A stretch of DNA of 64,000 bases from Bosea sp. 685. Lineage in GTDB: Bacteria > Pseudomonadota > Alphaproteobacteria > Rhizobiales > Beijerinckiaceae. The notes below the pieces were generated by a model, which saw nothing but the letters and a program-made list of their open reading frames with translations, was not told where the DNA came from and made no database searches. Below are positions 8,661 through 64,000 of the stretch, piece after piece. A program made the translations under genes and the position numbers. The stretch covers positions 6,482,001-6,546,000 of the forward strand of contig NZ_CP134779.1 of assembly GCF_031884435.1 (NCBI RefSeq). The letters are read 5' to 3'. The stretch's first letter is position 1; each line of letters begins with the position of its first letter.

Positions 8661-9539
8661 ATGATCATGACCAGACGCCTCTTGCTCACGGCTGGCTTCT
8701 CGGCCGCCTTTGCCGGCCTTGCGCTTGCCCAGACGACCACAGTCGCGCCGCCGGCGGCATCGACCCCTGCAGCAGCGGGCGCGCGCTTCATCACCGTCTC
8801 CTCGACGACCTCGACGCAGGATTCCGGGCTGTTCGGGCATATCCTGCCCTTGTTCCAGGCCAGGACCGGCATCGAGGTGCGGGTGGTGTCGCAAGGCACC
8901 GGCCAGGCGCTCGACACCGGGCGGCGCGGCGATGCCGATGTCGTCTTCGTCCATGCCAAGGCGCAGGAGGAGAAGTTCCTGGCTGAGGGTTTCGCGCTCG
9001 AGCGCAAGCCGGTGATGTATAACGACTTCGTCCTGATCGGCCCGAAGAGCGACCCGGCCGGCGTCGCCGGCACGAAGGACATCGTCGCAGCGCTGAAGGC
9101 GATCCAGGAGAAGGGCACGCCCTTCGTCTCGCGCGGCGACAAATCCGGCACTCACTCCGCCGAACTGGCGCTCTGGAAGGTCGCGGGCATCGATCTCGAT
9201 CAGAAGAAGGGCTCCTGGTATCGCGATGTCGGCCAGGGCATGGGGGCTGCGCTCAACACGGCCGGCGGCATGGGGGCCTATGTGCTCTCCGATCGCGGTA
9301 CCTGGATCTCGTTCAAGAACCGCGGCGATCTCACGATTGCGGTCGAGGGTGACCGGCGCCTGTTCAACCAATATGGCGTCATGGCGGTGAACCCGGCCAA
9401 GCACCGGCATGTGAAGGTCAATGACGGCCAGGCCTTCGTGAACTGGCTGGTCAGCCCGGAAGGCCAGAAGGCGATCGCCGACTACAAGATCGACGGGCAG
9501 CAATTATTCTTCCCGAATGCGACGCAGGCGGGAGCCTGA
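8661..9539 (+). CDS. tupA: tungstate-binding protein TupA
   Basis: Periplasmic binding protein that delivers tungstate to TupBC. A signal peptide (MIMTRRLLLTAGFSAAF...ALAQ) is followed by an Ala/Pro linker and the diagnostic ligand-loop STTSTQDSGLFGHILP; TupA proteins carry TTTSTxDSGLL at this position. The FVSRGDKSGTH and VLSDRGTW segments are also family hallmarks. The start at 8661 has GAGGAGA about eight bases upstream; an in-frame GTG at 8601 is possible but less likely. It ends four bases before the first ModA-like gene, extending the operon. Confidence 0.93.
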   Translation: MIMTRRLLLTAGFSAAFAGLALAQTTTVAPPAASTPAAAGARFITVSSTTSTQDSGLFGHILPLFQARTGIEVRVVSQGTGQALDTGRRGDADVVFVHAKAQEEKFLAEGFALERKPVMYNDFVLIGPKSDPAGVAGTKDIVAALKAIQEKGTPFVSRGDKSGTHSAELALWKVAGIDLDQKKGSWYRDVGQGMGAALNTAGGMGAYVLSDRGTWISFKNRGDLTIAVEGDRRLFNQYGVMAVNPAKHRHVKVNDGQAFVNWLVSPEGQKAIADYKIDGQQLFFPNATQAGA

Positions 9540-9543
9540 ATCG

Positions 9544-10353
9544 ATGCGCCGTCTGATCCTTGCCGCCCTGTTCGGGCTCTCCTGCTCCGTCGCGCAGGCC
9601 GAGCAACCCGTGCTGCTCCATGCTGCCGGCAGCCTGCGCAATGCGCTGACCGAAGTCGCCCAGGCCTTCGAGGCGACGGCCAAGCTGCCGGTCAAGACCA
9701 GCTTCGGACCCTCTGGCCTGTTGCGCGAGAACCTGTCCAAAGGTGAGGCGGCCGAGGTCTTCGCTTCCGCAAACATGTCGCATCCGCTTGCCCTGACACA
9801 CGAGGGCAAGGCCGGGCCCGTCGTGCTCTTCGCCCGCAACGAGACCTGCGCCTTTGCCCGCGCCGGGCTGGAGGTGACGACTGAAACGCTGCTGGCGCGC
9901 ATGCTCGATCCCGCGATCAAGCTCGGCACCTCGACGCCGAAGGCCGATCCGTCCGGCGATTATGCCTGGCAGATCTTCGCCAAGGCCGAGGCGCTGAAGC
10001 CCGGCGCCAAGGCGGCCCTGGAGGCCAAGGCACTCCAGCTCGTCGGCGGTCCCGACAGCGCGCCGACCCCGGCCGACAGGAACGGCACGGGCCATCTGCT
10101 GGCGACGGGGGCGGCCGATCTGTTCCTGGGCTATTGCACCAATGCCTTGCCGATCGCGCGCGAACAGCCGGGCCAGCACATGGTCAGGCTGCCGCCGGCG
10201 CTTGCCGTGGGCGCCGATTACGGGATGACCGTGATGAACGGCGCCTCGAACAATGCCTTCCGCTTGGCGATGTTCATCCTGTCGCCTGAAGGCCAGCGCA
10301 TCCTCGCCAAGCACGGCTTCACCGCCCCGACCGCGCCGCACGAGGGCAGTTGA
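9544..10353 (+). CDS. ModA-like oxyanion-binding protein, copy 1 (secreted)
   Basis: Extracytoplasmic binding protein of the ModA/WtpA superfamily. A clear signal peptide (MRRLILAALFGLSCSVAQA) leads to LLHAAGSLRNALTEVA, whose AAGSL loop is the usual oxyanion contact. It is 269 aa and starts at the ATG four bases after tupA. It is highly similar to the next gene along its whole length, for example LGTSTPKADPSGDYA and LAKHGF in both, so the two are tandem duplicates. No dedicated ModBC lies beside it; it may share TupBC or the downstream importer, or act as a scavenger. Ligand unproven. Confidence 0.85.
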   Translation: MRRLILAALFGLSCSVAQAEQPVLLHAAGSLRNALTEVAQAFEATAKLPVKTSFGPSGLLRENLSKGEAAEVFASANMSHPLALTHEGKAGPVVLFARNETCAFARAGLEVTTETLLARMLDPAIKLGTSTPKADPSGDYAWQIFAKAEALKPGAKAALEAKALQLVGGPDSAPTPADRNGTGHLLATGAADLFLGYCTNALPIAREQPGQHMVRLPPALAVGADYGMTVMNGASNNAFRLAMFILSPEGQRILAKHGFTAPTAPHEGS

Positions 10354-12674: not shown

Positions 12675-13688
12675 ATGTCGCCATCCTCCCTTCGCGGAAA
12701 CGCCATTGCGCTTGGCCTGCTCGGCGTCGCCGTGCTGCTCGCTTTCGGGCTCGGGCGCTTTCCTGTCGGGCCCGCCGATCTGGCGCGGCTCGTCTGGGCG
12801 GGCCTGAGCGGTCAGCCTTCGGGCCTGTCGCCGCAGATCGAGGCCGTGATCTGGAACATTCGCGGGCCGCGCGTGGTTGCCGCTTTGCTTTGCGGGGCGG
12901 CGCTGGCGGTCGCGGGCACGGCCTTCCAGGGGCTGTTCCGCAATCCGCTGGTCTCGCCCGATATCCTGGGCGCGTCCTCGGGTGCAGCGCTGGGGGCGGT
13001 CGTCGGGATCTATTTTTCGCTGGGTCTGTTTGCGATCCAGCTCGCGGCCTTCACGGGTGGGCTGGTCGCGGTCGGCGCGGTCTATGCGATCGGCTCGACC
13101 ATCCGGCGCGGCGATCCGGTGCTGGTCCTGGTGCTGACCGGCGTCGTCGTCGGCTCGCTCCTGGGGGCGGGCATCGGGCTGGTGAAATACTGGGCCGATC
13201 CTTACAACCAATTGCCCGCCATGACCTTCTGGCTGCTCGGCAGCCTCGCCGGAACGGCCAAGCCGGACCTCGCTCCGCTGCTCGGCCCGGTGCTGCTGGG
13301 CACGGCCGTGCTTGTCGCCCTGCGCTGGCGGATGAATGTGATGTCGCTGCCGGAGGAGGAGGCGCGGGCGCTCGGGCTCAATACCGGCCCCTTGCGCATC
13401 GCGATCGTGACGGCGGCGACGCTGGTGACGGCGGCGAGCGTCGCGGCGGCCGGCATCATCGGCTGGGTCGGGCTCGTCGTGCCGCATCTGGCGCGTTTTC
13501 TGGTCGGTCCCGATTTCGGCAAGCTCCTGCCGACGGCGGCGCTCCTTGGCGGCGGCTATCTCCTGATCATCGACACGCTGGCGCGCACCGCGGCGCCGGT
13601 CGAGACGCCGCTTGGCATCCTCACCGCCGTGATCGGCACGCCCTTCTTCATCTGGTTGCTGGCCTCGGCGCGCGGAGGCTGGTCGTGA
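12675..13688 (+). CDS. FecCD/BtuC/MolB-type ABC permease
   Basis: Polytopic inner-membrane permease of about 337 aa and some ten hydrophobic segments. Hallmarks are RGPRVVAALLCGAALAVAGTAFQGLFRNPLVSPDILG in pieces: the RxPR entry, the GxxFQ turn and the NPLxxPDxLG loop, all typical of FecCD permeases. IGWVGLVVPHLAR matches the cytoplasmic coupling region. I chose the ATG at 12675; a GTG at 12633 that overlaps the previous stop is an alternative and would add 14 residues. Its stop overlaps the ATPase start. Confidence 0.9.
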   Translation: MSPSSLRGNAIALGLLGVAVLLAFGLGRFPVGPADLARLVWAGLSGQPSGLSPQIEAVIWNIRGPRVVAALLCGAALAVAGTAFQGLFRNPLVSPDILGASSGAALGAVVGIYFSLGLFAIQLAAFTGGLVAVGAVYAIGSTIRRGDPVLVLVLTGVVVGSLLGAGIGLVKYWADPYNQLPAMTFWLLGSLAGTAKPDLAPLLGPVLLGTAVLVALRWRMNVMSLPEEEARALGLNTGPLRIAIVTAATLVTAASVAAAGIIGWVGLVVPHLARFLVGPDFGKLLPTAALLGGGYLLIIDTLARTAAPVETPLGILTAVIGTPFFIWLLASARGGWS

Positions 13689-54724: not shown

Positions 54725-55954
54725 ATGCTTCCTGCCTCGCTCCTGACCGACCGTCGCCTGCCGGTGACCGTGCTCTCCGGCTTCCTCGGGGCCGGCAAGA
54801 CCACCTTGCTCAATCACATCCTCAGCAATCGCGAGGGCAAGCGCGTCGCGGTCATCGTCAACGATATGAGTGAGGTGAATATCGACGCCGATCTGGTGCG
54901 CGAGGGCGGGGCGGACCTGTCCAAGACCGACGAAAAGCTCGTCGAGATGAGCAATGGCTGCATCTGCTGCACCTTGCGCGACGATCTCCTGAGCGAGGTG
55001 CGCCGGCTCGCGGCCGAGAACCGCTTCGACTACCTGCTGATCGAAGGCACCGGCATCGCCGAGCCGTTGCCGATCGCCGCGACCTTCTCCTTCCGCGACG
55101 AAGAGGACCGCTCGCTCGACGATGTCGCGCGACTCGACACGATGGTGACGGTGGTCGACGCCATCAACCTGCTCGCCGATTACGACAGCCGCGATTTCCT
55201 CGGCGATCGCGGCGAGACCGCCGGCGAGGGCGATGCGCGCACGCTGGTCGATCTCCTGGTCGAGCAGATCGAATTCGCCGATGTCGTGGTGATCAACAAG
55301 GCCGGCGAGGTCTCTGCCGGGGAGCGCGACAGGGTGCGCCGCGTCGTGCGCGGGCTCAATGCCGATGCCCGGATCGTCGAGGCCGATTTCGGCCGGGTGG
55401 CGCTCGACCAGGTGCTGAACACGCGCCTGTTCAACGAGGAGAAAGCGGAGACGCATCCGCTCTGGCACAAGGAGCTGTTCGGCTTCCGCGACCATGTGCC
55501 GGAAACCGAGGAATACGGCATCCGCTCCTTCGTCTACCGGGCGCGGCGGCCGTTCCATCCACGCCAGCTCCACGCGCTGATGAATAATCGCTTTCCCGGC
55601 GTGATCCGCGCCAAGGGGCATTTCTGGCTGGCGACGCGGCCGCATTGGGTCGGCGAATACTCGCTCGCCGGGCGGATCACGCGCACCGAGGGGCTGGGCA
55701 GCTGGTGGGCGGCGGTGCCGAAGGAGCGCTGGCCGCGTTCGGAGGAGTTCGCCTCGCTGATGCGGCGCCACTGGTCGCAGATCTGGGGCGATAGACGGCA
55801 GGAGCTGGTCTTCATCGGCGGGCCGGAGATGGACGAGGCCGCGATCCGTGCCGCGCTCGATGCCTGCCTGACCGGGAGCCCGACGACCGGCCTCTCGAAA
55901 GCCCTGCTCGCGCTCGAAGATCCGTTCCCCGCCTGGGACCGGCAGGCGGCTTGA
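54725..55954 (+). CDS. COG0523 (CobW/ZigA-like) GTPase metallochaperone
   Basis: 409 aa. P-loop [12 protein letters not shown] (residues 19-30), then the metal-binding CxCC motif NGCICC at 79-82 and the GTPase strand [14 protein letters not shown]. The usual NKxD guanine motif reads NKAG ([10 protein letters not shown]), a departure worth noting. The C-terminal CobW_C domain ends before DPFPAWDRQ. Zur-regulated COG0523 proteins help supply zinc to key enzymes during starvation. The receptor gene follows at once, so the two probably form one zinc-responsive operon. Confidence 0.9.
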
Positions 55955-56010
55955 TCACCCTCTCGCCGCCCTCGGGCGGTCGTATAGCCCTTATCGAATC
56001 GGATCTTCTC

Positions 56011-58215
56011 ATGACCATCGACCTTGCGGCGGCGCGCCGCGCCGGCATCCTCAGTGCCGGCGTCGCGCTTGGCGCCATCATTGCGACCAGTGCGCGAGCG
56101 CAAACGCCGATCGAACTGCCCGAGATCACCGTGACGGCGCCAAGCCCGATCCAGCCGCGCAGCCTGCCTGATGCCGGGGCTGCGCCGAGCGGCGACGCGG
56201 TTGCGGTCAACCGTAGCTTCTCCTCGGTCACCTTCCTGACCGCCGGCGAACTCCTCCGCAATGGCGGCCATACGCTCGGCGACCAGCTCGCCAACCAGCC
56301 GGGCATCACCAATTCGGGCTTTGCGCCGGGCGCGGCCGACCGTCCGATCATTCGCGGCCTCGATAATTTCCGCGTCCGTATCCAGGAAAACGGCATCGGC
56401 TCGCAGGATGTCTCCGATCTCGGCGAGGATCACGGCGTGCCGATCGATCCCCTCGCAGCGCAGCGCGTCGAGGTCATCCGCGGGCCGGGCACCTTGCGCT
56501 ATGGTTCGCAGGCGATCGGCGGCGTCGTCAGCGTCGACAACAACCGCATCCCGTCATTCCTGATCGCGCCGGGCTTCCATGCCGAGACGCGCTCCTCGGT
56601 GTCCTCGGTCGATCGCGGCATCGAGAATTCAGCGCTGATCGATGCGCGCTCGGGCCAGTTCGTCGTCCATGGCGACATCTACCACCGCAATGCCGAGGAT
56701 TATCACATCCCCGGCGGGACCCAGTTCAACAGCTATGTCCGCTCCGACGGCCAGGCGATCGGCGGTTCCTATTTCCTGCCCGATAATCGCGGCTTCATCG
56801 GCGTCTCGCTGTCGCATTTCACCAGCCTCTACGGCATCCCCGGCGCCGATGCGCGAGCGACGCGCACCCGCATCGACCTCGAACAGACCAAGCTTGCGGG
56901 CAAGGGCGAGTTCCAGATCGATGGCGGCTTCATCGACACCTTGCGCTTCTGGGTCGGCGGTTCCGTCTACAGGCATCAAGAGCAGGGGCTGAACGAGGGC
57001 GGCGGCTTCGAGACCGCCGCCGTGTTCAAGAATCGCGAGATCGAGGGGCGCGTCGAGGCGCAGCTCAAGCCGCTCGAAACCGGCATCGGCCGCCTGACCT
57101 CGGCTTTCGGCCTGCAGCTCGGCCGCCAGGAGATCGGCACCTCCGGAGAAGCCGGTGGGCTGCTGCCGCCAGCCGACACCAACAGCGCCGGCGTCTACAA
57201 TTTCAACGAATTGCAGCTGCAGCCCGGCACGAAGCTGCAGGCCGCCGGCCGTGTCGACTATGTCGACGTCAAGGGCACCGCGACGAACTTCCCGACCGGC
57301 TACCTGCCTGGTTCCACGACCGCTGGGGGCATCGACCCCGAGACCGGCGCGGCGACGCAAGTGGCGACGGCGGACGATCCGGCTGCCTCGGCACGGCGGC
57401 GGCGCTTCATGCCGGTGAGCGCGAGCCTCGGCCTGTTGCAGGATCTGCCCTTCGGCTTCACTGGCAGCCTGACCGGCTCTTATACCGAGCGCGCGCCCAA
57501 GGCTTCCGAACTGTTCTCGCGCGGCGCGCATGATGCACCCGGCACCTTCGAGATCGGCGATCCCAATCTGAAGAAGGAGACCGCCAAGACGGTCGAGCTC
57601 GGCCTGCGCCGCACGGCAGGTCCCTGGCGCTTCGATGCCTCGCTCTATGCGACGCGCTATGAGGGCTTCATCTATCGCCGCGTCACAGGCGTGCGCTGCG
57701 ATGATGATTTCGCCAGCTGCGGCACCGGCAACGAATTGACCCAGGTGGTCTATACCCAGCGCAACGCCACTTTCCTCGGCGGCGAACTCAAGACGCAATA
57801 CGACCTCTTCGAGATCGGCCCGAACGTCTTCGGGGTCGAGGGGCAATACGACATCGTCCGCGCGAAGTTCTCCGGCGACGAGAATGTGCCGCGCATTCCG
57901 CCGCAACGCCTTGGCGGCGGGCTGTTCTGGCGCGGCGGCGATGCCTGGTTCGCCAAGGTCAGTTTGATCCATGCCTTCTCGCAGAAGCGGATCGCGCCCG
58001 AGGAGACGCCGACCAGCGGCTACAACCTGCTCAACGCCGAGCTCAGCTACAAGGTCAAGCTCAAGGACGGGCCGCTCGGGCCGATCGAGCTCACCGCCGG
58101 CGTCAACGGCACCAATCTGCTCAATGAGACGATCCGTAACGCCGTGTCCTTCCGCAAGGACGATGTCGTAGCGCCCGGACGCGGCGTGCGCGCCTTCCTG
58201 AGCGCGAAGTTCTGA
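56011..58215 (+). CDS. TonB-dependent outer-membrane receptor (ZnuD-like)
   Basis: About 734 aa beta-barrel receptor. Signal sequence MTIDLAAARRAGILSAGVAL...ARAQ, then a plug domain with LPEITVTA, PGITNSGFAPGAADRPIIRGLDNFR (motif) and the hallmark VEVIRGPGTLRYGSQAIGG. The barrel ends in AFLSAKF with the terminal Phe needed for insertion. The GEDHGVPIDP stretch and the gene context resemble ZnuD zinc receptors. I prefer the ATG at 56011; a TTG at 55951 overlaps the COG0523 stop. No cobalamin riboswitch precedes it; that element lies downstream of it. Confidence 0.85.
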   Translation: MTIDLAAARRAGILSAGVALGAIIATSARAQTPIELPEITVTAPSPIQPRSLPDAGAAPSGDAVAVNRSFSSVTFLTAGELLRNGGHTLGDQLANQPGITNSGFAPGAADRPIIRGLDNFRVRIQENGIGSQDVSDLGEDHGVPIDPLAAQRVEVIRGPGTLRYGSQAIGGVVSVDNNRIPSFLIAPGFHAETRSSVSSVDRGIENSALIDARSGQFVVHGDIYHRNAEDYHIPGGTQFNSYVRSDGQAIGGSYFLPDNRGFIGVSLSHFTSLYGIPGADARATRTRIDLEQTKLAGKGEFQIDGGFIDTLRFWVGGSVYRHQEQGLNEGGGFETAAVFKNREIEGRVEAQLKPLETGIGRLTSAFGLQLGRQEIGTSGEAGGLLPPADTNSAGVYNFNELQLQPGTKLQAAGRVDYVDVKGTATNFPTGYLPGSTTAGGIDPETGAATQVATADDPAASARRRRFMPVSASLGLLQDLPFGFTGSLTGSYTERAPKASELFSRGAHDAPGTFEIGDPNLKKETAKTVELGLRRTAGPWRFDASLYATRYEGFIYRRVTGVRCDDDFASCGTGNELTQVVYTQRNATFLGGELKTQYDLFEIGPNVFGVEGQYDIVRAKFSGDENVPRIPPQRLGGGLFWRGGDAWFAKVSLIHAFSQKRIAPEETPTSGYNLLNAELSYKVKLKDGPLGPIELTAGVNGTNLLNETIRNAVSFRKDDVVAPGRGVRAFLSAKF

Positions 58216-58254: not shown

Positions 58255-58480
58255 GGCGGTGTGCTTCCTTGGCGGGGTCGGTTCTCGAAAGAGATCAAAG
58301 GGAATCCGGTGAGCGCGCGCCAGCGCGCGATTCCGGAGCTGCCCCCGCAACTGTCAGCGGCGAGCGACGTTCGATCATGCCACTGGGCTTGCCCCGGGAA
58401 GGCCGAACGAAGCTTGGACCCGCGAGCCAGGAGACCTGCCGACGTCGTGAAGCCATGCAACCGGGCGGGGTGCCCCGGAA
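58255..58480 (+). promoter_or_regulatory. cobalamin (adenosylcobalamin-type) riboswitch
   Basis: All main blocks are in order: GGTGTGCTTCC at the 5' side, GGGAATCCGGTG near 58310, CCGGAGCTGCCCCCGCAACTG at 58333-58353 (the B12 box core, quoted in part as GCTGCCCCCGCAACTG), GCCACTG at 58379, GGGAAGGC at 58396 and GAGCCAGGAGACCTGCC near 58424. A CCGGGCGGGGTGCCCCGG hairpin (58461-58478) abuts GGAAGGAG, so B12 binding could hide that ribosome site. It controls the small ORF, methyltransferase and ABC genes downstream. Confidence 0.95.
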
Positions 58481-58489
58481 GGAGCTCTG

Positions 58490-58597
58490 ATGACGGTCGC
58501 TCACTTGCGCGTTCTGGTCGCGCAACCGGGTTCGAACGGCGCCGAAGCACCGGCCGCGTCCCATCCATGGGAAGCCGGTGACGGATGTCGAACGTAG
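58490..58597 (+). CDS. 35-aa ORF behind the riboswitch, coupled to the methyltransferase
   Basis: ATG at 58490 with a strong GGAAGGAG six bases upstream opens a 35-codon frame (begins MTVAHLRVLVAQPGSNG, ends EAGDGCRT). Its TAG at 58595 lies beyond the methyltransferase ATG at 58585, a 13-base overlap. The methyltransferase start has no strong site of its own, so ribosomes finishing this frame could reinitiate there. It may be a regulatory leader rather than a functional peptide. Confidence 0.55.
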   Translation: MTVAHLRVLVAQPGSNGAEAPAASHPWEAGDGCRT

Positions 58598-59397
58598 CGC
58601 CCCTAGACGCCGAGGCGGTCGCCTCCGGAGGAACGAATTTCGGCCTGAAGGACGAAATCCGCGCCTATTGGAGCAAACGCGCCGAGACCTTCGATCTCTC
58701 CTATGGCCACAGGATCCGCTCCGATGCCGAGCTCGTGGCCTGGGCGCGATTGATCGCGAGCCATGCCCCGGTTGCTGCCGGGGCCAGGGCGCTGGAGCTT
58801 GCCTCGGGCACCGGCGAGATCACGCGCGTGCTGCTTTCGCTTGGCTGCAGCGTCGATGCGATCGATCTCTGCGAGCCGATGATCGCCCGTGCCCAAGTGA
58901 AGCATGCGAATGCGGCCGTTCGCTTCCACCTCGGCGACGCCGAGAACACGATGATGGCGGATGAGGCCTATGACCTCGTCATCTGCCGGCATCTGGTCTG
59001 GACGCTGATCGATCCCGCCCGCGCCTTGGCCGATTGGCTGCGCGTGCTCAAGCCCGGCGGGGTGCTCATCGTCGTTGATGGCGACTGGGTCACGCTTTCG
59101 CGCAGATCGGTGCTGTTGAAGCGGCTCTCGGGATTGATCGACAGGCTCGCTGGTGTCGCCTCCACCTGGGATCAGGCGACGCATCAACGCATCCTGGACG
59201 GCGTGCATTTCCGCAACGGCCTGCGCGCGCCGGCGCTCGAGGCGATGCTGCGCGAGGTTGGCTTCGAGGTCCAGCGCATCGGGCCGCTCAGCGGCATCGC
59301 GCGCCGGCAATTCGCGACCGCCTCCTGGAGCGAGCGGCTGCGCCTGCTCGCGGCCCAGGGCCAGTCCTTCATCCTGTCCGCCCGCAAGCCGGGCTGA
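58585..59397 (+). CDS. class I SAM-dependent methyltransferase in a B12-regulated operon
   Basis: 270 aa. Motif I is ARALELASGTGEITRVLLSLG with the glycine-rich LASGTGE, motif II ends VDAIDLCEPMI, and motif IV is DLVICRHLVWTL. The insertion after residue 170 (SRRSVLLKRLSGLIDRL) is longer than in small-molecule methyltransferases such as UbiE. No signal peptide. It is the first conventional gene after the cobalamin riboswitch and lies 24 bases before the binding-protein gene. A substrate linked to a cobalt-binding metabolite is my inference; the family alone does not say. Confidence 0.85.
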   Translation: MSNVAPLDAEAVASGGTNFGLKDEIRAYWSKRAETFDLSYGHRIRSDAELVAWARLIASHAPVAAGARALELASGTGEITRVLLSLGCSVDAIDLCEPMIARAQVKHANAAVRFHLGDAENTMMADEAYDLVICRHLVWTLIDPARALADWLRVLKPGGVLIVVDGDWVTLSRRSVLLKRLSGLIDRLAGVASTWDQATHQRILDGVHFRNGLRAPALEAMLREVGFEVQRIGPLSGIARRQFATASWSERLRLLAAQGQSFILSARKPG

Positions 59398-59421
59398 ACC
59401 GCCTTAACCGGAGATCTGATC

Positions 59422-60957
59422 ATGACATCGTGGGGCCTGACCCGCCGCCTCCTGCTTGCCGGCGCATTCGTGCCGCTCGCGGCCATGCCGTCCCTGGCCC
59501 AGCAGGGCGAGCCTGTCCTGCGCGTCGTCGCGCCTTGGGAGTACACTTCGAACGACCCGGCCGACACAGGCTATATCCTGACCCGCCTCGGGGTCGCGGA
59601 GACGCTGGTACAGGTCGAGCCGGAAGGCCAGCTCGTTGGCGGCATTGCCGAAAGCTGGTCGGTCTCCGAGGACAAGCTGAGCTGGCGCTTCAAGCTGCGC
59701 GCGGGCTTAAGCTTCCATGACGGCAGCCCGGTGACGGCGCAGGCCGTGGCCGCCAGCCTGAAGCAGTCCTTCATCGGCGAGAGCCTCTCGGCCGTGCCGC
59801 TCGACAGCGTGTCGCTCGATGGCGCCGATGTGGTGATCCGCACCAGGACGCCTTTCAGCGTGCTGCCGGCTTTCCTGTGCGATTACGCCTCGATCGTGCT
59901 CGCGCCCTCCGCTTACGGCACTGAGGGCAAGGTCATCAAGATCGTCGCAACCGGGCCCTATAAGCTCACCGCGATCGACGGCAAGACGACGCTGGAGCTC
60001 GACCGCTTCGAAGGCTATGCGCGGACCAAACCCGCCATCGCCAGGCTGCGCTACACGGCGGTGGTCAATGGCGACACCCGCGCCAATATCGCGATCGCTG
60101 GGGACGCCGACCTCGTCTATACGCTGAGCCCCACCGCGACGCCGCGGATCAATGCCGCCGGCCAGATGAAGGTCGAGAGCCTGACCATTCCGCGGATCCG
60201 CGCGCTGTTTTTCGACAGCGGATTGCCGCAATTCTCCGATGTTCGCGTCCGTCGTGCCATCGCCATGGCTGTCGATCGCGACGGCATCGCCAAGGCGATC
60301 CTGCGCGATCCGGATTCGAGCGCCTCGCAGCTGCTGCCGCCGATCATGACGGGCTGGCATCGCCAGGGTCTGCCCGCCATCGCCCATGATCCCGCGGCGG
60401 CGCGCAAGCTGCTCGACGAAGCCGGCTGGATCGCGGCAGGCGACGGCATCCGCGTCAAGGACGGCGTCCGGCTCGCGGCCAAGCTCCTGACGCTGGTCAA
60501 CCGGCCGGAGCTGCCGGTCATGGCTTCAGCCATCCAGGCGCAACTGCGTGGGATCGGCATGGACGTCGCGATCGAGGTCGGTCCGGGCAACAGCGTTCCC
60601 GCCGCGATCAAGGACGGGACCATGCAGTTCACGCTGGTCTCGCGCACCTATGTCAATGTGCCCGAGCCGATCGCGACGATCATCCCCGATTTCGCGCGCG
60701 AGCGCTCGGTCTGGGGGACGGTGCGCTGGGATGGCCGGGATCAGGTCAAGGCCCTGGCGGACGCCTATCTCGCGAGCTTCGACGACGCCCGCAAGGACGA
60801 ACTGCGGGGGCAGATCATCGCCCTGCTGCACGACCAGATGCCCGTCGTGCCGGTCTCCTGGACCGAGCACAGCGTCGCGGTCTCCGGGCGGATCAAGAAT
60901 GTCGCGATCGACCCCTATGAGATGCGCTACCTCGTCGAACGGATGGCCTGGAAGTGA
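59422..60957 (+). CDS. Nik/Opp-type ABC substrate-binding protein
   Basis: 511 aa solute-binding protein family 5, as in NikA, CntA and OppA. A signal peptide (MTSWGLTRRLLLAGAFVPLAAM) is followed by NDPADTGYILTRLGVAETLV, a stretch resembling NikA/CntA rather than peptide-binding OppA. WRFKLRAGLSFHDGSPVTA is the family hallmark. Under a B12 riboswitch the likely ligand is cobalt or a chelated cobalt. The stop overlaps the GTG start of the permease gene. Confidence 0.9.
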   Translation: MTSWGLTRRLLLAGAFVPLAAMPSLAQQGEPVLRVVAPWEYTSNDPADTGYILTRLGVAETLVQVEPEGQLVGGIAESWSVSEDKLSWRFKLRAGLSFHDGSPVTAQAVAASLKQSFIGESLSAVPLDSVSLDGADVVIRTRTPFSVLPAFLCDYASIVLAPSAYGTEGKVIKIVATGPYKLTAIDGKTTLELDRFEGYARTKPAIARLRYTAVVNGDTRANIAIAGDADLVYTLSPTATPRINAAGQMKVESLTIPRIRALFFDSGLPQFSDVRVRRAIAMAVDRDGIAKAILRDPDSSASQLLPPIMTGWHRQGLPAIAHDPAAARKLLDEAGWIAAGDGIRVKDGVRLAAKLLTLVNRPELPVMASAIQAQLRGIGMDVAIEVGPGNSVPAAIKDGTMQFTLVSRTYVNVPEPIATIIPDFARERSVWGTVRWDGRDQVKALADAYLASFDDARKDELRGQIIALLHDQMPVVPVSWTEHSVAVSGRIKNVAIDPYEMRYLVERMAWK

Positions 60958-61906
60958 GGCCGGCGCTCACGCTGCTCGGGACGCGGGCCGTGCAGGCTGC
61001 GCTGACGGCCTGGCTGCTGGCGACGCTGTGCTTTGCCTTCGTCCATGCCTTGCCCGGCGACATGGCGCTTCGCGTCGCTGCGGCCCGCGTTGGCGATGAG
61101 CGGGTGACGGTCGAGACGACTGAGCGCATCCGCCGCGAGGAGGGGCTCGACCGGCCATTGGCCGTGCAATACGCCGCCTGGCTCGGCAGCATTGCGACCG
61201 GCGATCTCGGCCAGTCGCTGGTCTCGCGCCAGCCGTGCGGCAGGAGATCGCCTATCACGGCCGCTTCACGCTCGGCCTGGGCGCGCTCGGCTGGCTGGTC
61301 TCCTATCTCATCGCCCTGCCGCTCGGCATCGCCTGCGGTTTTGCGCCGGGAGGATGGCTCGACCGCGTAACGACGGGCATCGCGGTCGCGCTCGCCTCGC
61401 TGCCGAGCTTCCTCGTCGGCATCGGCTTGATCTCGGTCTTCGCGCTCAGCCTGCGCTGGTTGCCGCCGGCCGGCTACCGGACGGGCGCGCATATGGTCTT
61501 GCCGGCCTTGACGCTGGCGCTGGGCCTGGCGGCCTTCTCGGTCAGGATCATCCGCAACGCCGTGGTCGAGGTGCGCGGCGCTTTCTACATGACCTTCGCC
61601 CGGATCAGGGGGCGCTCGGCCGCATCGGCCTTCCGCCATCACGGCCTGCGCAATGCGGCGATCCCGGTCGCGACTTTTGCGGCGCTGCAATTCGCCTACA
61701 TGGTCGATGGCTTCGTCGTGGTCGAGATGCTGTTCAACTATCCGGGGCTGGGCGAATTGCTGGTCAAGGCGCTGCTCGCCCGCGACGTGCCGGTGGTGAT
61801 GGGCGCGGGGCTGGTGATCGGGCTGGTCTATGCGGGCGTCAACCTCCTAGCCGATCTCGCCTGCCTCGCGCTGGATCCGCGCCAGGCCGCGAGGGTTGCG
61901 GCATGA
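60954..61906 (+). pseudogene. NikB/DppB-type permease with a single-base frameshift
   Basis: The GTG start at 60954 begins MRPALTLLGTRAVQAALTAWL and reads through LGQSLVSRQP, where it leaves the permease frame near 61235. A second frame resumes at once with RQEIAYHGRFTLGLGALGW and continues to the end with the EAA-like loop. One added G in AGCCGTGCGG (to give CCGGTGCGG) restores an uninterrupted ~317 aa permease. As written the protein would be cut after ~138 residues, mostly before the core helices, which would disable the importer unless this is a sequencing error or slippage. Confidence 0.85.
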
Positions 61907-62862
61907 GCGGGCAGGCGGTTTCCGAACTCATCGACCCTCGTCCCGAGGAGCCGCGCAGTGGCGCCTCGAAGGATGATCCGGAGCCTGCCGGCGCAGTCTT
62001 CGAGACGCGTTCATTCCCAACGCTCCTCGGGATGAGGGCTGAGAAGGGAGATGGGCTGAAGGCCGGCCTCGCTTTGCCGTTTGTCCTGCTGGCTGTTGTA
62101 GCTGGGCTCGCTCTGTTTGGGCCATTGCTGTCGCCGCATGACCCCACAGTGCAGGATCTGCTGCATGCGCTCGAAGGACCCAGCCTGGCGCATCCGCTTG
62201 GCACGGATCATGTCGGGCGCGACGTATTCGCCCGCCTGGCGCATGGGGCGGGCCGCTCGCTGGGAATCGCGCTCGCCTGCGTCGGCGCTGCCACCGGTGT
62301 CGGCCTCGGGCTCGGCCTGATCGCCGCCTATGCCGGGCGCTGGAGCGACATGGCGATCATGCGTCTGGCCGATCTGATGCTGGCTTTTCCCGGCATCCTG
62401 CTGGCGCTGATGATCTCCGGATTTCTCGGCGGTGGCGTGCTGCCGATGCTGATCGGCATCAAATTGACGCTGTGGCCGCAATTTGCCCGGATGGCGCGCG
62501 CCATCGCGCAGGGCGAACTGAAGGAGCCACATGTCGAGGCGGCGCGACTGGCGGGCTTTCCGGCCCGCACCCTGTTGATCCGCCACGTCCTGCCCGCCGT
62601 GCTGCGCCAGACCACGACGCTGGCGACGCTGGGGCTGGGGGCCGCGATCATGTCGATCTCGGCGCTCGGCTTCCTGGGCTTAGGGTTGCAGCCGCCGACG
62701 CCGGAATGGGGCGCGATGATCAGCGAACTCCTGCCTTACATCTCCGAGGCGCCGGTGCAGATGGCGGCGCCTTGCCTGGCGATCTTCGTCTCCGTGCTCG
62801 GTGCGACCCTGCTTGGGCAGGCGCTGTCGGAGCCCGATTCCGGCCCGGAGACCGAACGATGA
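61903..62862 (+). CDS. NikC/DppC-type permease with a repeat-derived N-terminal insert
   Basis: 319 aa inner-membrane permease. The core begins around residue 50 with AGLALPFVLLAVVAGLALFGPL and carries GTDHVGRDVFARLAHGAGRSL and the EAA loop EAARLAGFPARTLLIRHVLP. Residues ~11 to ~46 (DPRPEEPRSGASKDDPEPAG and onward) are encoded by a family C palindromic repeat, not by normal permease sequence. The start overlaps the previous stop, so the original start codon seems retained. The stop overlaps the ATPase start. Confidence 0.88.
   Translation: MSGQAVSELIDPRPEEPRSGASKDDPEPAGAVFETRSFPTLLGMRAEKGDGLKAGLALPFVLLAVVAGLALFGPLLSPHDPTVQDLLHALEGPSLAHPLGTDHVGRDVFARLAHGAGRSLGIALACVGAATGVGLGLGLIAAYAGRWSDMAIMRLADLMLAFPGILLALMISGFLGGGVLPMLIGIKLTLWPQFARMARAIAQGELKEPHVEAARLAGFPARTLLIRHVLPAVLRQTTTLATLGLGAAIMSISALGFLGLGLQPPTPEWGAMISELLPYISEAPVQMAAPCLAIFVSVLGATLLGQALSEPDSGPETER
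61935..62038. repeat. family C palindromic repeat inside a coding sequence
   Basis: CCCTCGTCCCGAGGAGC at the left and CTCCTCGGGATGAGGG at the right, inner arms GCCTCGAAGGATGATCC and AGTCTTCGAGACGCG. It matches the intergenic copy at 32253-32362 in order and sequence. It is read through without a stop in the permease frame. Confidence 0.85.
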
Positions 62863-64000
62863 GCCCTCCGGCCCTGGTCATCCGCGGTCTCGCCATTCGC
62901 GACGGCCATGGCGCATCGGTGGTCGCGGGCGTCGATCTCGAGGTCGAGGCCGGCGGGACGCTGGTCCTGATCGGTGAGACCGGCAGCGGCAAGAGCCTGA
63001 TCGCCCAGGCGGTGATGGGCCTCTTGCCGCAAGGCTTTGCGGCGAGCGGGACGATCGCGATCAATGGTCATGCTCCGGTCGATGCCGGGCAGGCCGGGCT
63101 CCTGCGGCTGTTCTGGTCGCGCGAGACCATGTTGCTGCCGCAGGAGCCGCGCGCCGCGCTCGACCCGACGATGCGCGTTGGCCGCCAGCTCTTCGAGAGG
63201 ACGGGGCAGGGCGATGCCGTGGCGGCGCTGCAGGCCGTCGGGCTCGCGCCGGAGGTTGCGCAGGCCTATCCGCTGACGCTGTCGGGCGGCATGGCGCAGC
63301 GCGTGCTCGTCGCCTCCGTGCTGGTCGGGCGCGCGCCGCTGCTGATCGCCGACGAGCCGACCAAGGGGCTCGATCCCGAAAGGCTCGACCAGACGCGCGA
63401 CCTCTTATTGTCTCTCCGGCAGGCCGGGCGCGCGCTCCTGGTGATCACGCATGACATCGGGCTGGCGCGCGCGCTCGGCGGATGGCTCGCGGTGCTGCGC
63501 GAAGGCCGCATCGTCGAGCAAGGCGAGAGCGAAGCCGTCTTTGCGGCGCCGCGCCAACCCTATACCCGCGCCTGGATCGAGGCCGATCCCTCGCGCTGGC
63601 GGCCGAGCCTGCGCTGCTGTGCGGTCGATGCTCCGGTGCTTGCCGGCCACGGCCTGCGCTTCGGCTTCCGGGGCCGGCCTGCCCTGCTCGAGGGGCTCGA
63701 CATCCATGTCCCGCGCGGCGGCGTGCTCGCACTCACCGGCCCCAGCGGCTGCGGCAAGACCACGCTCGGCAATATCCTGCTCGGGCTGCAGGCGCCTGAT
63801 GCCGGCGAGGTGAGCTGGGCCGGCGTCGACCCCTATCGCGATCGCGCGGCACTGAAACGCCTGCGTCGCCGCTACCAGAAGCTGCATCAGGATCCCGCCA
63901 GCGTCTTCCTGCCCGGCCGCAGCATTGGCCTGCAACTTGCCGACCTCACGGAGATCGCGCCCGATCTCGACCTCACCAGCGATCTGCCGCCCTTGCTCGA
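62859..64000 (+). CDS. fused NikDE/DppDF-type double ABC ATPase (cut by window end)
   Basis: ATG at 62859 overlaps the permease stop and the frame is open to the last base. The first ATPase domain has Walker A GETGSGKS, signature LSGGMAQR and Walker B LLIADEPTKGLD, then an H-loop ITHDIGLA. After a short linker (RPSLRCCAVDAPVLAG) a second domain starts with Walker A GPSGCGKTT near residue 297. So both ATPases of the importer are in one polypeptide, unlike the separate NikD and NikE of E. coli. The C-terminal half lies outside the window. Confidence 0.9.
   Translation, partial: MSPPALVIRGLAIRDGHGASVVAGVDLEVEAGGTLVLIGETGSGKSLIAQAVMGLLPQGFAASGTIAINGHAPVDAGQAGLLRLFWSRETMLLPQEPRAALDPTMRVGRQLFERTGQGDAVAALQAVGLAPEVAQAYPLTLSGGMAQRVLVASVLVGRAPLLIADEPTKGLDPERLDQTRDLLLSLRQAGRALLVITHDIGLARALGGWLAVLREGRIVEQGESEAVFAAPRQPYTRAWIEADPSRWRPSLRCCAVDAPVLAGHGLRFGFRGRPALLEGLDIHVPRGGVLALTGPSGCGKTTLGNILLGLQAPDAGEVSWAGVDPYRDRAALKRLRRRYQKLHQDPASVFLPGRSIGLQLADLTEIAPDLDLTSDLPPLL

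Follow-up and report, generated by a model that had tools for sequence, protein, structure and literature searches.

Among the closest described counterparts of the system analyzed here is CbtJKL of Sinorhizobium meliloti, a pSymB-borne cobalt importer under the control of an adenosylcobalamin riboswitch, which was judged to transport cobalt and not B12 and whose mutant needs 1-10 uM CoCl2 for growth (PMC7689651). B12-riboswitched importers of the NikABCDE family are likewise already known as predictions, made for two other bacteria (PMC2667541). Apparently new here is a methyltransferase as partner of such a Nik-type importer. Both are encoded within a window of 64,000 nucleotides from Bosea sp. 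685 (contig NZ_CP134779.1, positions 6,482,001 to 6,546,000, forward strand), in an operon that opens with a cobalamin (B12) riboswitch and continues with a leader open reading frame (ORF), the methyltransferase, a periplasmic solute-binding protein (SBP), permease B, permease C, and a two-domain ATPase. With moderate confidence, we read this operon as a B12-repressed importer of cobalt, most likely of a cobalt chelate, whose cytosolic methyltransferase acts on the imported ligand. No report of the methyltransferase family as an importer partner was recognized in the literature searched, the coverage of which leaves out most subscription papers. The acquisition of cobalt by bacteria and its freeing within the cell are poorly known, and to our knowledge no cobalt-specific chelator has been established. 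Tying the family to riboswitch-controlled importers, including the positionally assigned cbtJKL, points to a concrete gene in a model rhizobium and shows two unrelated importer types with a common switch and a common accessory enzyme.

The operon and its closest described systems

A sequence-only reading of this stretch had described a cobalamin riboswitch followed by a 35-codon ORF, a methyltransferase, an SBP, permeases, and a fused ATPase. This order (Table 1) held apart from permease B, which is split over two reading frames. The riboswitch was fully borne out by the covariance model RF00174, with 121.4 bits (E 6e-30) against a gathering score of 31.5, and from this sequence element the downstream genes are predicted to be repressed by B12. 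In several cases the end of one operon gene overlaps the start of the next. The fused ATPase runs 277 bases past the edge of the window, and its whole ORF is visible, to 16277, in locus L005 (loci and genomes compared are labeled L and G).

At the pSymB locus of S. meliloti strain RCAM1115, a riboswitch is followed by an SBP, a permease, an ATPase, and then a methyltransferase. The corresponding genes of strain 1021 are located at ~66.6-70.3 kb, behind a riboswitch at 66246-66475; of the two RF00174 sites found on pSymB, the other stands ahead of a gene for a CbiM-family protein. Published work places SMb20055/SMb20056, and upstream of smb20056 a cobalamin riboswitch, at the position of the importer genes (PMC2780559, PMC2245857), and CbtJKL is described as sharing one 38.5-kb pSymB region with SmB20072 (PMC12239276); from position, SMb20056-58 are probably CbtJKL. 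Both loci have the riboswitch first, a short leader ORF, an ABC importer, and a methyltransferase of the same family (44% identity). They differ in that the S. meliloti locus encodes a Peripla_BP_2 SBP and a single BtuC/FecD-like permease and has the methyltransferase last, whereas the window's operon has the methyltransferase first, an SBP_bac_5 protein, two BPD_transp_1 permeases, and two fused ATPase domains. Measured against the CbtJKL type, this operon shows the riboswitch and the family methyltransferase and lacks the Peripla_BP_2 SBP and the FecCD-type permease. For the CbtJ-type SBP, the nearest name in NCBIfam is that of the Eit importer, an assignment rejected on its score (332 against a cut-off of 640); EitD, the product of the fourth Eit gene, has been described as transporting solutes (PMC2797631).

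The SBP had been called NikA/CntA-like, a designation that stands at the level of fold and Pfam family and falls at that of model cut-offs and of the NikA pocket residues. The NikA models score 143.6 (cut-off 393) and 192.6 (cut-off 600), and CntA membership was rejected with 101.7 against a cut-off of 800. An AlphaFold2 model of the SBP (pLDDT 88.7) had NikA and NikZ as best Foldseek matches (NikA, E 8e-43). With permease B scored piecewise and the ATPase truncated at the end of the window, NikB (TIGR02789) gave 28.2 and 157.4 of 447 on the two permease fragments, NikC 244.8 of 358.45, NikD 170.6 of 318.7, and NikE 153.4 of 332.55, none of them reaching the cut-off; with these scores and the deviating pocket, membership in NikABCDE was rejected as well. 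The operon resembles NikABCDE in transporter class and in the riboswitch control predicted for two known cases, and differs from it by two fused ATPase domains, the added methyltransferase, and the missing pocket residues. With CntABCDF it shares the SBP fold (Foldseek 5yhe/5yh8, E ~1e-37) and, in some relatives, an EamA-family gene; it differs in the missed CntA cut-off and in having no CntL/CntM-like gene in the window's operon.

Riboswitch and first genes appear to be joined by a translated leader. Of 36 leaders, that of the window included, 34 carry a hairpin with a GCGGGG-type loop 3' of the B12 box, with stems varying on both sides (CCGGG/CCCGG, CGTCGAG/CTCGATG, TCCGG/CCGGA); the two misses, L171 and L179, carry a similar hairpin by eye, outside the search pattern. 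In the window this loop reads CGGGGTGC and might pair with the aptamer's C-rich L5 loop, as judged by eye and not by computation. The Shine-Dalgarno (SD) sequence and ATG of the leader ORF are retained in seven of nine compared leaders, again including the window, and in the 80-locus set described below 21 of 28 riboswitch loci have such a start at +51 to +61 past the B12 box, whereas mononucleotide shuffles averaged 0.03. The ORFs opening near this position mostly have 20-62 codons, and their peptides look unlike across lineages. Exceptions are L103 (no ORF), L130 and L140 (one-codon frames), and L053 (the SBP itself); in two CbtJ-type loci with annotated starts, the measured gap from leader ORF to SBP was 41 bases. 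Within the window's genome, a CbtB-like ORF itself occupies the leader-ORF position behind the cbtB riboswitch, and the metE and nrdA leaders showed no such SD and ATG start in the scanned range. In the window, the end of the leader ORF overlaps the start of the methyltransferase gene by 13 nucleotides, from which we infer that the 35-codon ORF is the probable first riboswitch-regulated cistron, translationally coupled to the methyltransferase. A short leader ORF under a riboswitch ahead of the main gene is also seen in ppe2 of Mycobacterium tuberculosis, described as a translated upstream ORF with termination-reinitiation (PMC11260477), the difference being that the ppe2 aptamer is atypical and that of the window typical.

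A methyltransferase family beside importers

The sequence-only reading had found no obvious transport role for the methyltransferase, a view contradicted by the conserved importer partnership of its family. Among the best 80 of 531 relatives (598 pattern matches) in a named genome collection, a metal/siderophore-type ABC importer adjoins the methyltransferase gene in 75 loci. These loci were typed by tblastn with hand-set thresholds, genes within 6.5 kb being counted, and their riboswitches were located with an nhmmer profile built from 21 Infernal-found sites. A B12 riboswitch lies upstream in all 25 CbtJ/EitA-type loci, in all three clear Nik-type loci, and in none of the 45 siderophore-type loci, the last label being our own for SBPs which, where tested, match the ferrichrome/ferrioxamine model below its cut-off. 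It was found in none of the three weak Nik-type loci (L104, L106, L108) and none of four other loci. Nik-type genes stand directly beside the methyltransferase in L104 and L106 and about 4 kb off in L108, which explains the count of 75. As a background, the genome of the window has 41 other Methyltransf_11 matches, none of which has a FecCD gene within 5 kb, in contrast to the family's second copy there. This copy (G000:C2:3907393-3908190, locus L049) is flanked by two siderophore-type SBPs, a permease, an ATPase, and a TonB-dependent receptor, and none of the genome's four riboswitches is located at it.

Further draws, each counting the window's genome, yielded family relatives in 20 of 297 genomes of the order (E 1e-20), eight of 385 genomes of the class (E 1e-40), and 50 of 61 genomes of the genus (E 1e-40); partial matches in G515 and G360 and a second copy in G050 were left out of the analysis. 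By tblastn, a FecCD-type permease and an ATPase adjoin the methyltransferase in all 20 order-draw loci, one of which is the second copy of the window's genome. A same-strand upstream riboswitch was present in five of the 20, all five with a CbtJ/EitA-like SBP. Eight additional loci (L183-L190) all have an importer of the FecCD kind beside the methyltransferase. The same contigs recur across sets (L082/L103, L090/L102, L032/L140, L033/L124, L180/L186), so that the sets are not independent. On a 98-row methyltransferase tree, importer type follows lineage with seven changes for five labels, compared with a mean of 40.0 after shuffling, a clustering to which near-copies add; several of the tree's long branches are marked as uncertain. 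Eight Nik-type rows and L104 form one clade (100/98), to which the methyltransferase of the window belongs, and L106 is adjacent (99/92).

Within the genus, 19 Nik-type loci were read, the window included. Eight have the riboswitch directly upstream, six of them with an intact methyltransferase and two with remnants of one; of the 11 without riboswitch, a single locus (L080) carries the enzyme (Fisher p 1.2e-4, ignoring kinship). The eight loci L081, L083, L085-L089, and L091, whose SBP and permeases are ~41-51% identical to those of the window, have neither riboswitch nor methyltransferase. In L082, L084, and L090, which have both, the permeases are 65-86% identical to the window's and the SBP only 42-45%, which suggests an exchange of the SBP inside an otherwise equivalent riboswitch-methyltransferase operon.

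The methyltransferase belongs to the class I superfamily using S-adenosylmethionine (SAM), by its Methyltransf_11 profile and its class I fold (AlphaFold2 pLDDT 91.6). All named class I families shown, the best 25 of 29, remained below their NCBIfam cut-offs and were rejected, the highest scores being MTase_DVU1556 with 57.0 of 155, UbiE-type with 56.6 of 158.35, BioC with 50.3 of 184.95, and CpaM with 48.5 of 180. The structure search returned generic class I neighbors, many of them tied, and was discarded as a substrate hint.

Several individual loci of the family deserve mention. In G050, one riboswitch precedes a ribonucleotide reductase large and small subunit, a CbtJ-type SBP, a permease, an ATPase, and the methyltransferase (L039, 7513-15685). 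In Rhodopseudomonas palustris XCP (L106, 3463-9774), two family methyltransferases flank one Nik-type importer, and no riboswitch was found at this locus. The methyltransferases of L152 and L157 fall in the CbtJ clade and stand away from a CbtJ-type importer; by eye, L152 has a COG0523 GTPase and an apparent zinc-type ABC permease as neighbors, and L157 lies near urease-like genes. A gene for pseudoazurin, a blue copper protein, stands beside the methyltransferase in eight of the 25 CbtJ-type loci (e.g., L051 8588-9013 and L053 9780-10211). Two contigs of metagenome-assembled genomes, L130 (labeled Acidobacteria) and L121 (Arenimonas), carry methyltransferases very close to that of Labrys L140 and close to that of Rhizobium L117, respectively, and are possibly mis-binned.

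Proposed function and competing explanations

The genome of 6.8 Mb holds four RF00174 sites, one of which is that of the window operon. Another is followed by a CbtB-like ORF, a CbtA-like ORF, a CobW-type GTPase, and CobN (CobN by Pfam, the others by sequence look), and the remaining two precede the class I ribonucleotide reductase gene nrdA and metE. The shared riboswitch, the shared methyltransferase, and these other riboswitch targets argue for cobalt as cargo. The earlier proposal of a cobalt acquisition system thus gains from the B12- and cobalt-related company of the riboswitch and from the methyltransferase family standing behind riboswitch-controlled CbtJ-type importers, its cargo part staying conditional. 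Because the methyltransferase partners with three groups of importers from two classes and shows no signal sequence by eye, it probably acts on an imported ligand.

We propose the following sequence of events. When adenosylcobalamin is scarce, the riboswitch would keep the leader ORF's Shine-Dalgarno sequence accessible, which would allow translation of the methyltransferase through its coupling to this ORF, the later genes presumably being switched through the shared transcript and their overlapping starts. In the periplasm, the family-5 SBP would capture the cargo, which both permeases, together with the two-domain ATPase, would then import. The cytosolic methyltransferase could then methylate donor atoms of the ligand and thereby weaken it, releasing Co(II), which unlike iron is not freeable by reduction, for corrin synthesis; relatives that also have an EamA-family transporter may use it to export the ligand once spent. 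A broader notion, that this is a family of cytosolic methyltransferases freeing redox-inert metals (cobalt, perhaps zinc or nickel) by chelator methylation, switched by B12 with two unrelated importer types and with EamA proteins expelling the ligand, is speculative and in our estimate unlikely; if true, it would constitute a metal-release chemistry parallel to the reduction or hydrolysis of ferric siderophores.

Several observations weigh against a cobalt-chelate importer with a ligand-methylating enzyme. The case for cobalt as the most likely cargo is one of analogy, and ligand release as the likeliest purpose of methylation is a proposal. At the columns of what we take to be the NikA pocket residues (Arg97, Trp100, Arg137, Trp398, and His416, the last also named in a PDB title), 40 of 40 aligned sequences of the SBP family have gap, gap, Tyr, Tyr, and Phe/Tyr. 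In the SBP fold search, peptide binders lie within ~2 Z of metal binders, and opine and glutathione binders are nearly tied too; the fold is hence compatible with, though no proof of, a metal-ligand cargo. Similarly, small-molecule methyltransferases top the structure search for the enzyme, with protein N-terminal methyltransferases within ~2 Z. The SBP divergence in L082, L084, and L090 may mean that the cargo differs between relatives. With 45 of the 80 methyltransferases paired with siderophore-type importers lacking the riboswitch, the enzyme is not cobalt-specific, and in five loci (L107, L108, L114, L152, L157) none of the importer types tested for is clearly adjacent. A CbtAB-like cobalt route (by sequence look) already exists in the window's genome. 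Within the genus, the earlier expectation that related operons would keep both riboswitch and methyltransferase held in part: for the riboswitch in all of the four closest operons, the window included, and for an intact methyltransferase in only two. The other two, L074 and L076 (genomes G304 and G297), retain remnants at 9216-9416 and 9583-9756, between an intact riboswitch and the SBP, so that the enzyme is not strictly needed; no family member was found at E 1e-40 in G304. Finally, permease B (60954-61906) is frameshifted in the window.

The foremost rival, unlikely in our view and still the one to be taken most seriously, has the methyltransferase make or tailor a secreted cobalt chelator, which an EamA-family protein exports and the Nik-type system re-imports as a complex, in the manner of opine metallophores, in which CntI is the exporter. 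It draws on the EamA-family gene found between SBP and permease B in L075 (by Pfam), L077 and L079 (by sequence look), and L080 (by tblastn), on the one following the methyltransferase in Stappia L105, and on a gene annotated as DMT-family that immediately precedes the riboswitch in Rhodobacter capsulatus L051; an EamA-type protein is also named in papers on opine metallophores (PMC5719457, PMC7438024). However, the window's operon contains no EamA gene and, besides the methyltransferase, no biosynthetic enzyme, the EamA query matched only L105 among the best 80 of 531 relatives, and the methyltransferase is tied far more to importers than to exporters. The opine dehydrogenase family PF10100 gave no match in the window's genome, a result to be read with the equally negative control genomes. 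A cargo of zinc, nickel, or peptides, with the riboswitch merely tying the importer to a B12-related need, would suit the ZigA-like GTPase and ZnuD-like receptor upstream of the operon (L074 and L075 have the pair, L076 just the GTPase), the eight Nik-type loci named above that have neither riboswitch nor methyltransferase, and the apparent zinc-type permease at L152. We hold this to be improbable, since the methyltransferase is or formerly was present in all eight riboswitch loci of the genus versus one of the 11 others (lineages not independent) and the genome's other riboswitch targets concern B12 or cobalt.

Import of a corrinoid or corrin precursor in place of cobalt, with its modification by the methyltransferase, appears most doubtful among these explanations. 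In its favor, B12 transporters are frequent among riboswitch targets, BtuC models match the permease of the S. meliloti locus with scores short of their cut-offs (227.9 of 461, 199.7 of 334), and CpaM, a corrinoid-protein-associated methyltransferase, matches weakly, with 48.5 bits in the window and 69.5 bits in L030. Yet the CpaM cut-off of 180 is not reached, we know of no family-5 SBP that carries corrinoids, and CbtJKL was judged to transport cobalt and not B12 (PMC7689651). Compatible with all other readings, which concern the system and not the strain, is a decay of the operon to a functionless state in Bosea sp. 685, for which we see a rather small chance. The broken permease B, the methyltransferase remnants in G304 and G297, and the EamA gene present in L075 and absent from the window would fit such a loss, as opposed to dN/dS values against L075 of 0.04 to 0.25 in every piece tested: 0.04 for the C-terminal and 0.25 for the N-terminal part of permease B, and 0.14-0.21 for the other four operon genes (methyltransferase, 0.20). 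Permease B is unbroken in close relatives, as a single ORF in L075 and in one frame by anchor distance in L074 and L076. Low values on both sides of the frameshift indicate a very recent break or an assembly or sequencing error; unless it is a sequencing error, the importer may be non-functional in this strain. For the system as such, we retain the B12-repressed import of cobalt, most likely chelated, with methylation of the ligand as the best explanation.

Feature coordinates and neighboring genes

Table 1. Features of the riboswitch operon and its upstream neighbors, in window coordinates
Feature	Position	Strand	Evidence or remark
COG0523 GTPase, ZigA-like, upstream neighbor	54725-55954	+	chaper_GTP_ZigA 597.2 bits (cut-off 600)
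TonB-dependent receptor, ZnuD-like, upstream neighbor	55951-58215	+	Zn_piracy_ZnuD 236.6 bits (cut-off 950)
Cobalamin (B12) riboswitch aptamer	58262-58457	+	RF00174, 121.4 bits, E 6e-30, full model 1-189
Expression-platform hairpin (P13-like)	58461-58478	+	directly before Shine-Dalgarno AAGGAG 58479-58484
35-codon leader ORF	58490-58597	+	strong Shine-Dalgarno directly behind riboswitch hairpin
Class I SAM methyltransferase, 270 aa	58585-59397	+	Methyltransf_11 E 2.1e-21
Periplasmic SBP, SBP_bac_5 (cluster C)	59422-60957	+	PF00496 220.8 bits
Permease B, N-terminal part (BPD_transp_1_N)	60954-61370	+	PF19300 E 5e-8
Permease B, C-terminal part (BPD_transp_1), other frame	61235-61906	+	PF00528 E 6.3e-35
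Permease C (OppC/NikC type)	61903-62862	+	PF00528 E 1.7e-23; nickel_nikC 244.8 bits (cut-off 358.45)
Fused ATPase, two ABC domains	62859-64000, continuing to ~64277	+	ABC_tran, two stretches

The ORF groups c4 and c12, considered as extra genes opposite the SBP and the ATPase in related loci, proved to be antisense shadows. Upstream, the ZnuD-like receptor ends 46 bases before the riboswitch; it adjoins the operon at 96% in L074 and 93% in L075 and was not found in L076. By tblastn, the ZigA-like GTPase was matched in 10 of the genus's 18 Nik-type loci, the matches in L080 and L091 being partial. Zinc/cobalt cross-talk or read-through is possible. Elsewhere in the window, a FecCD-type permease match at 12720-13664 is unrelated to the operon.

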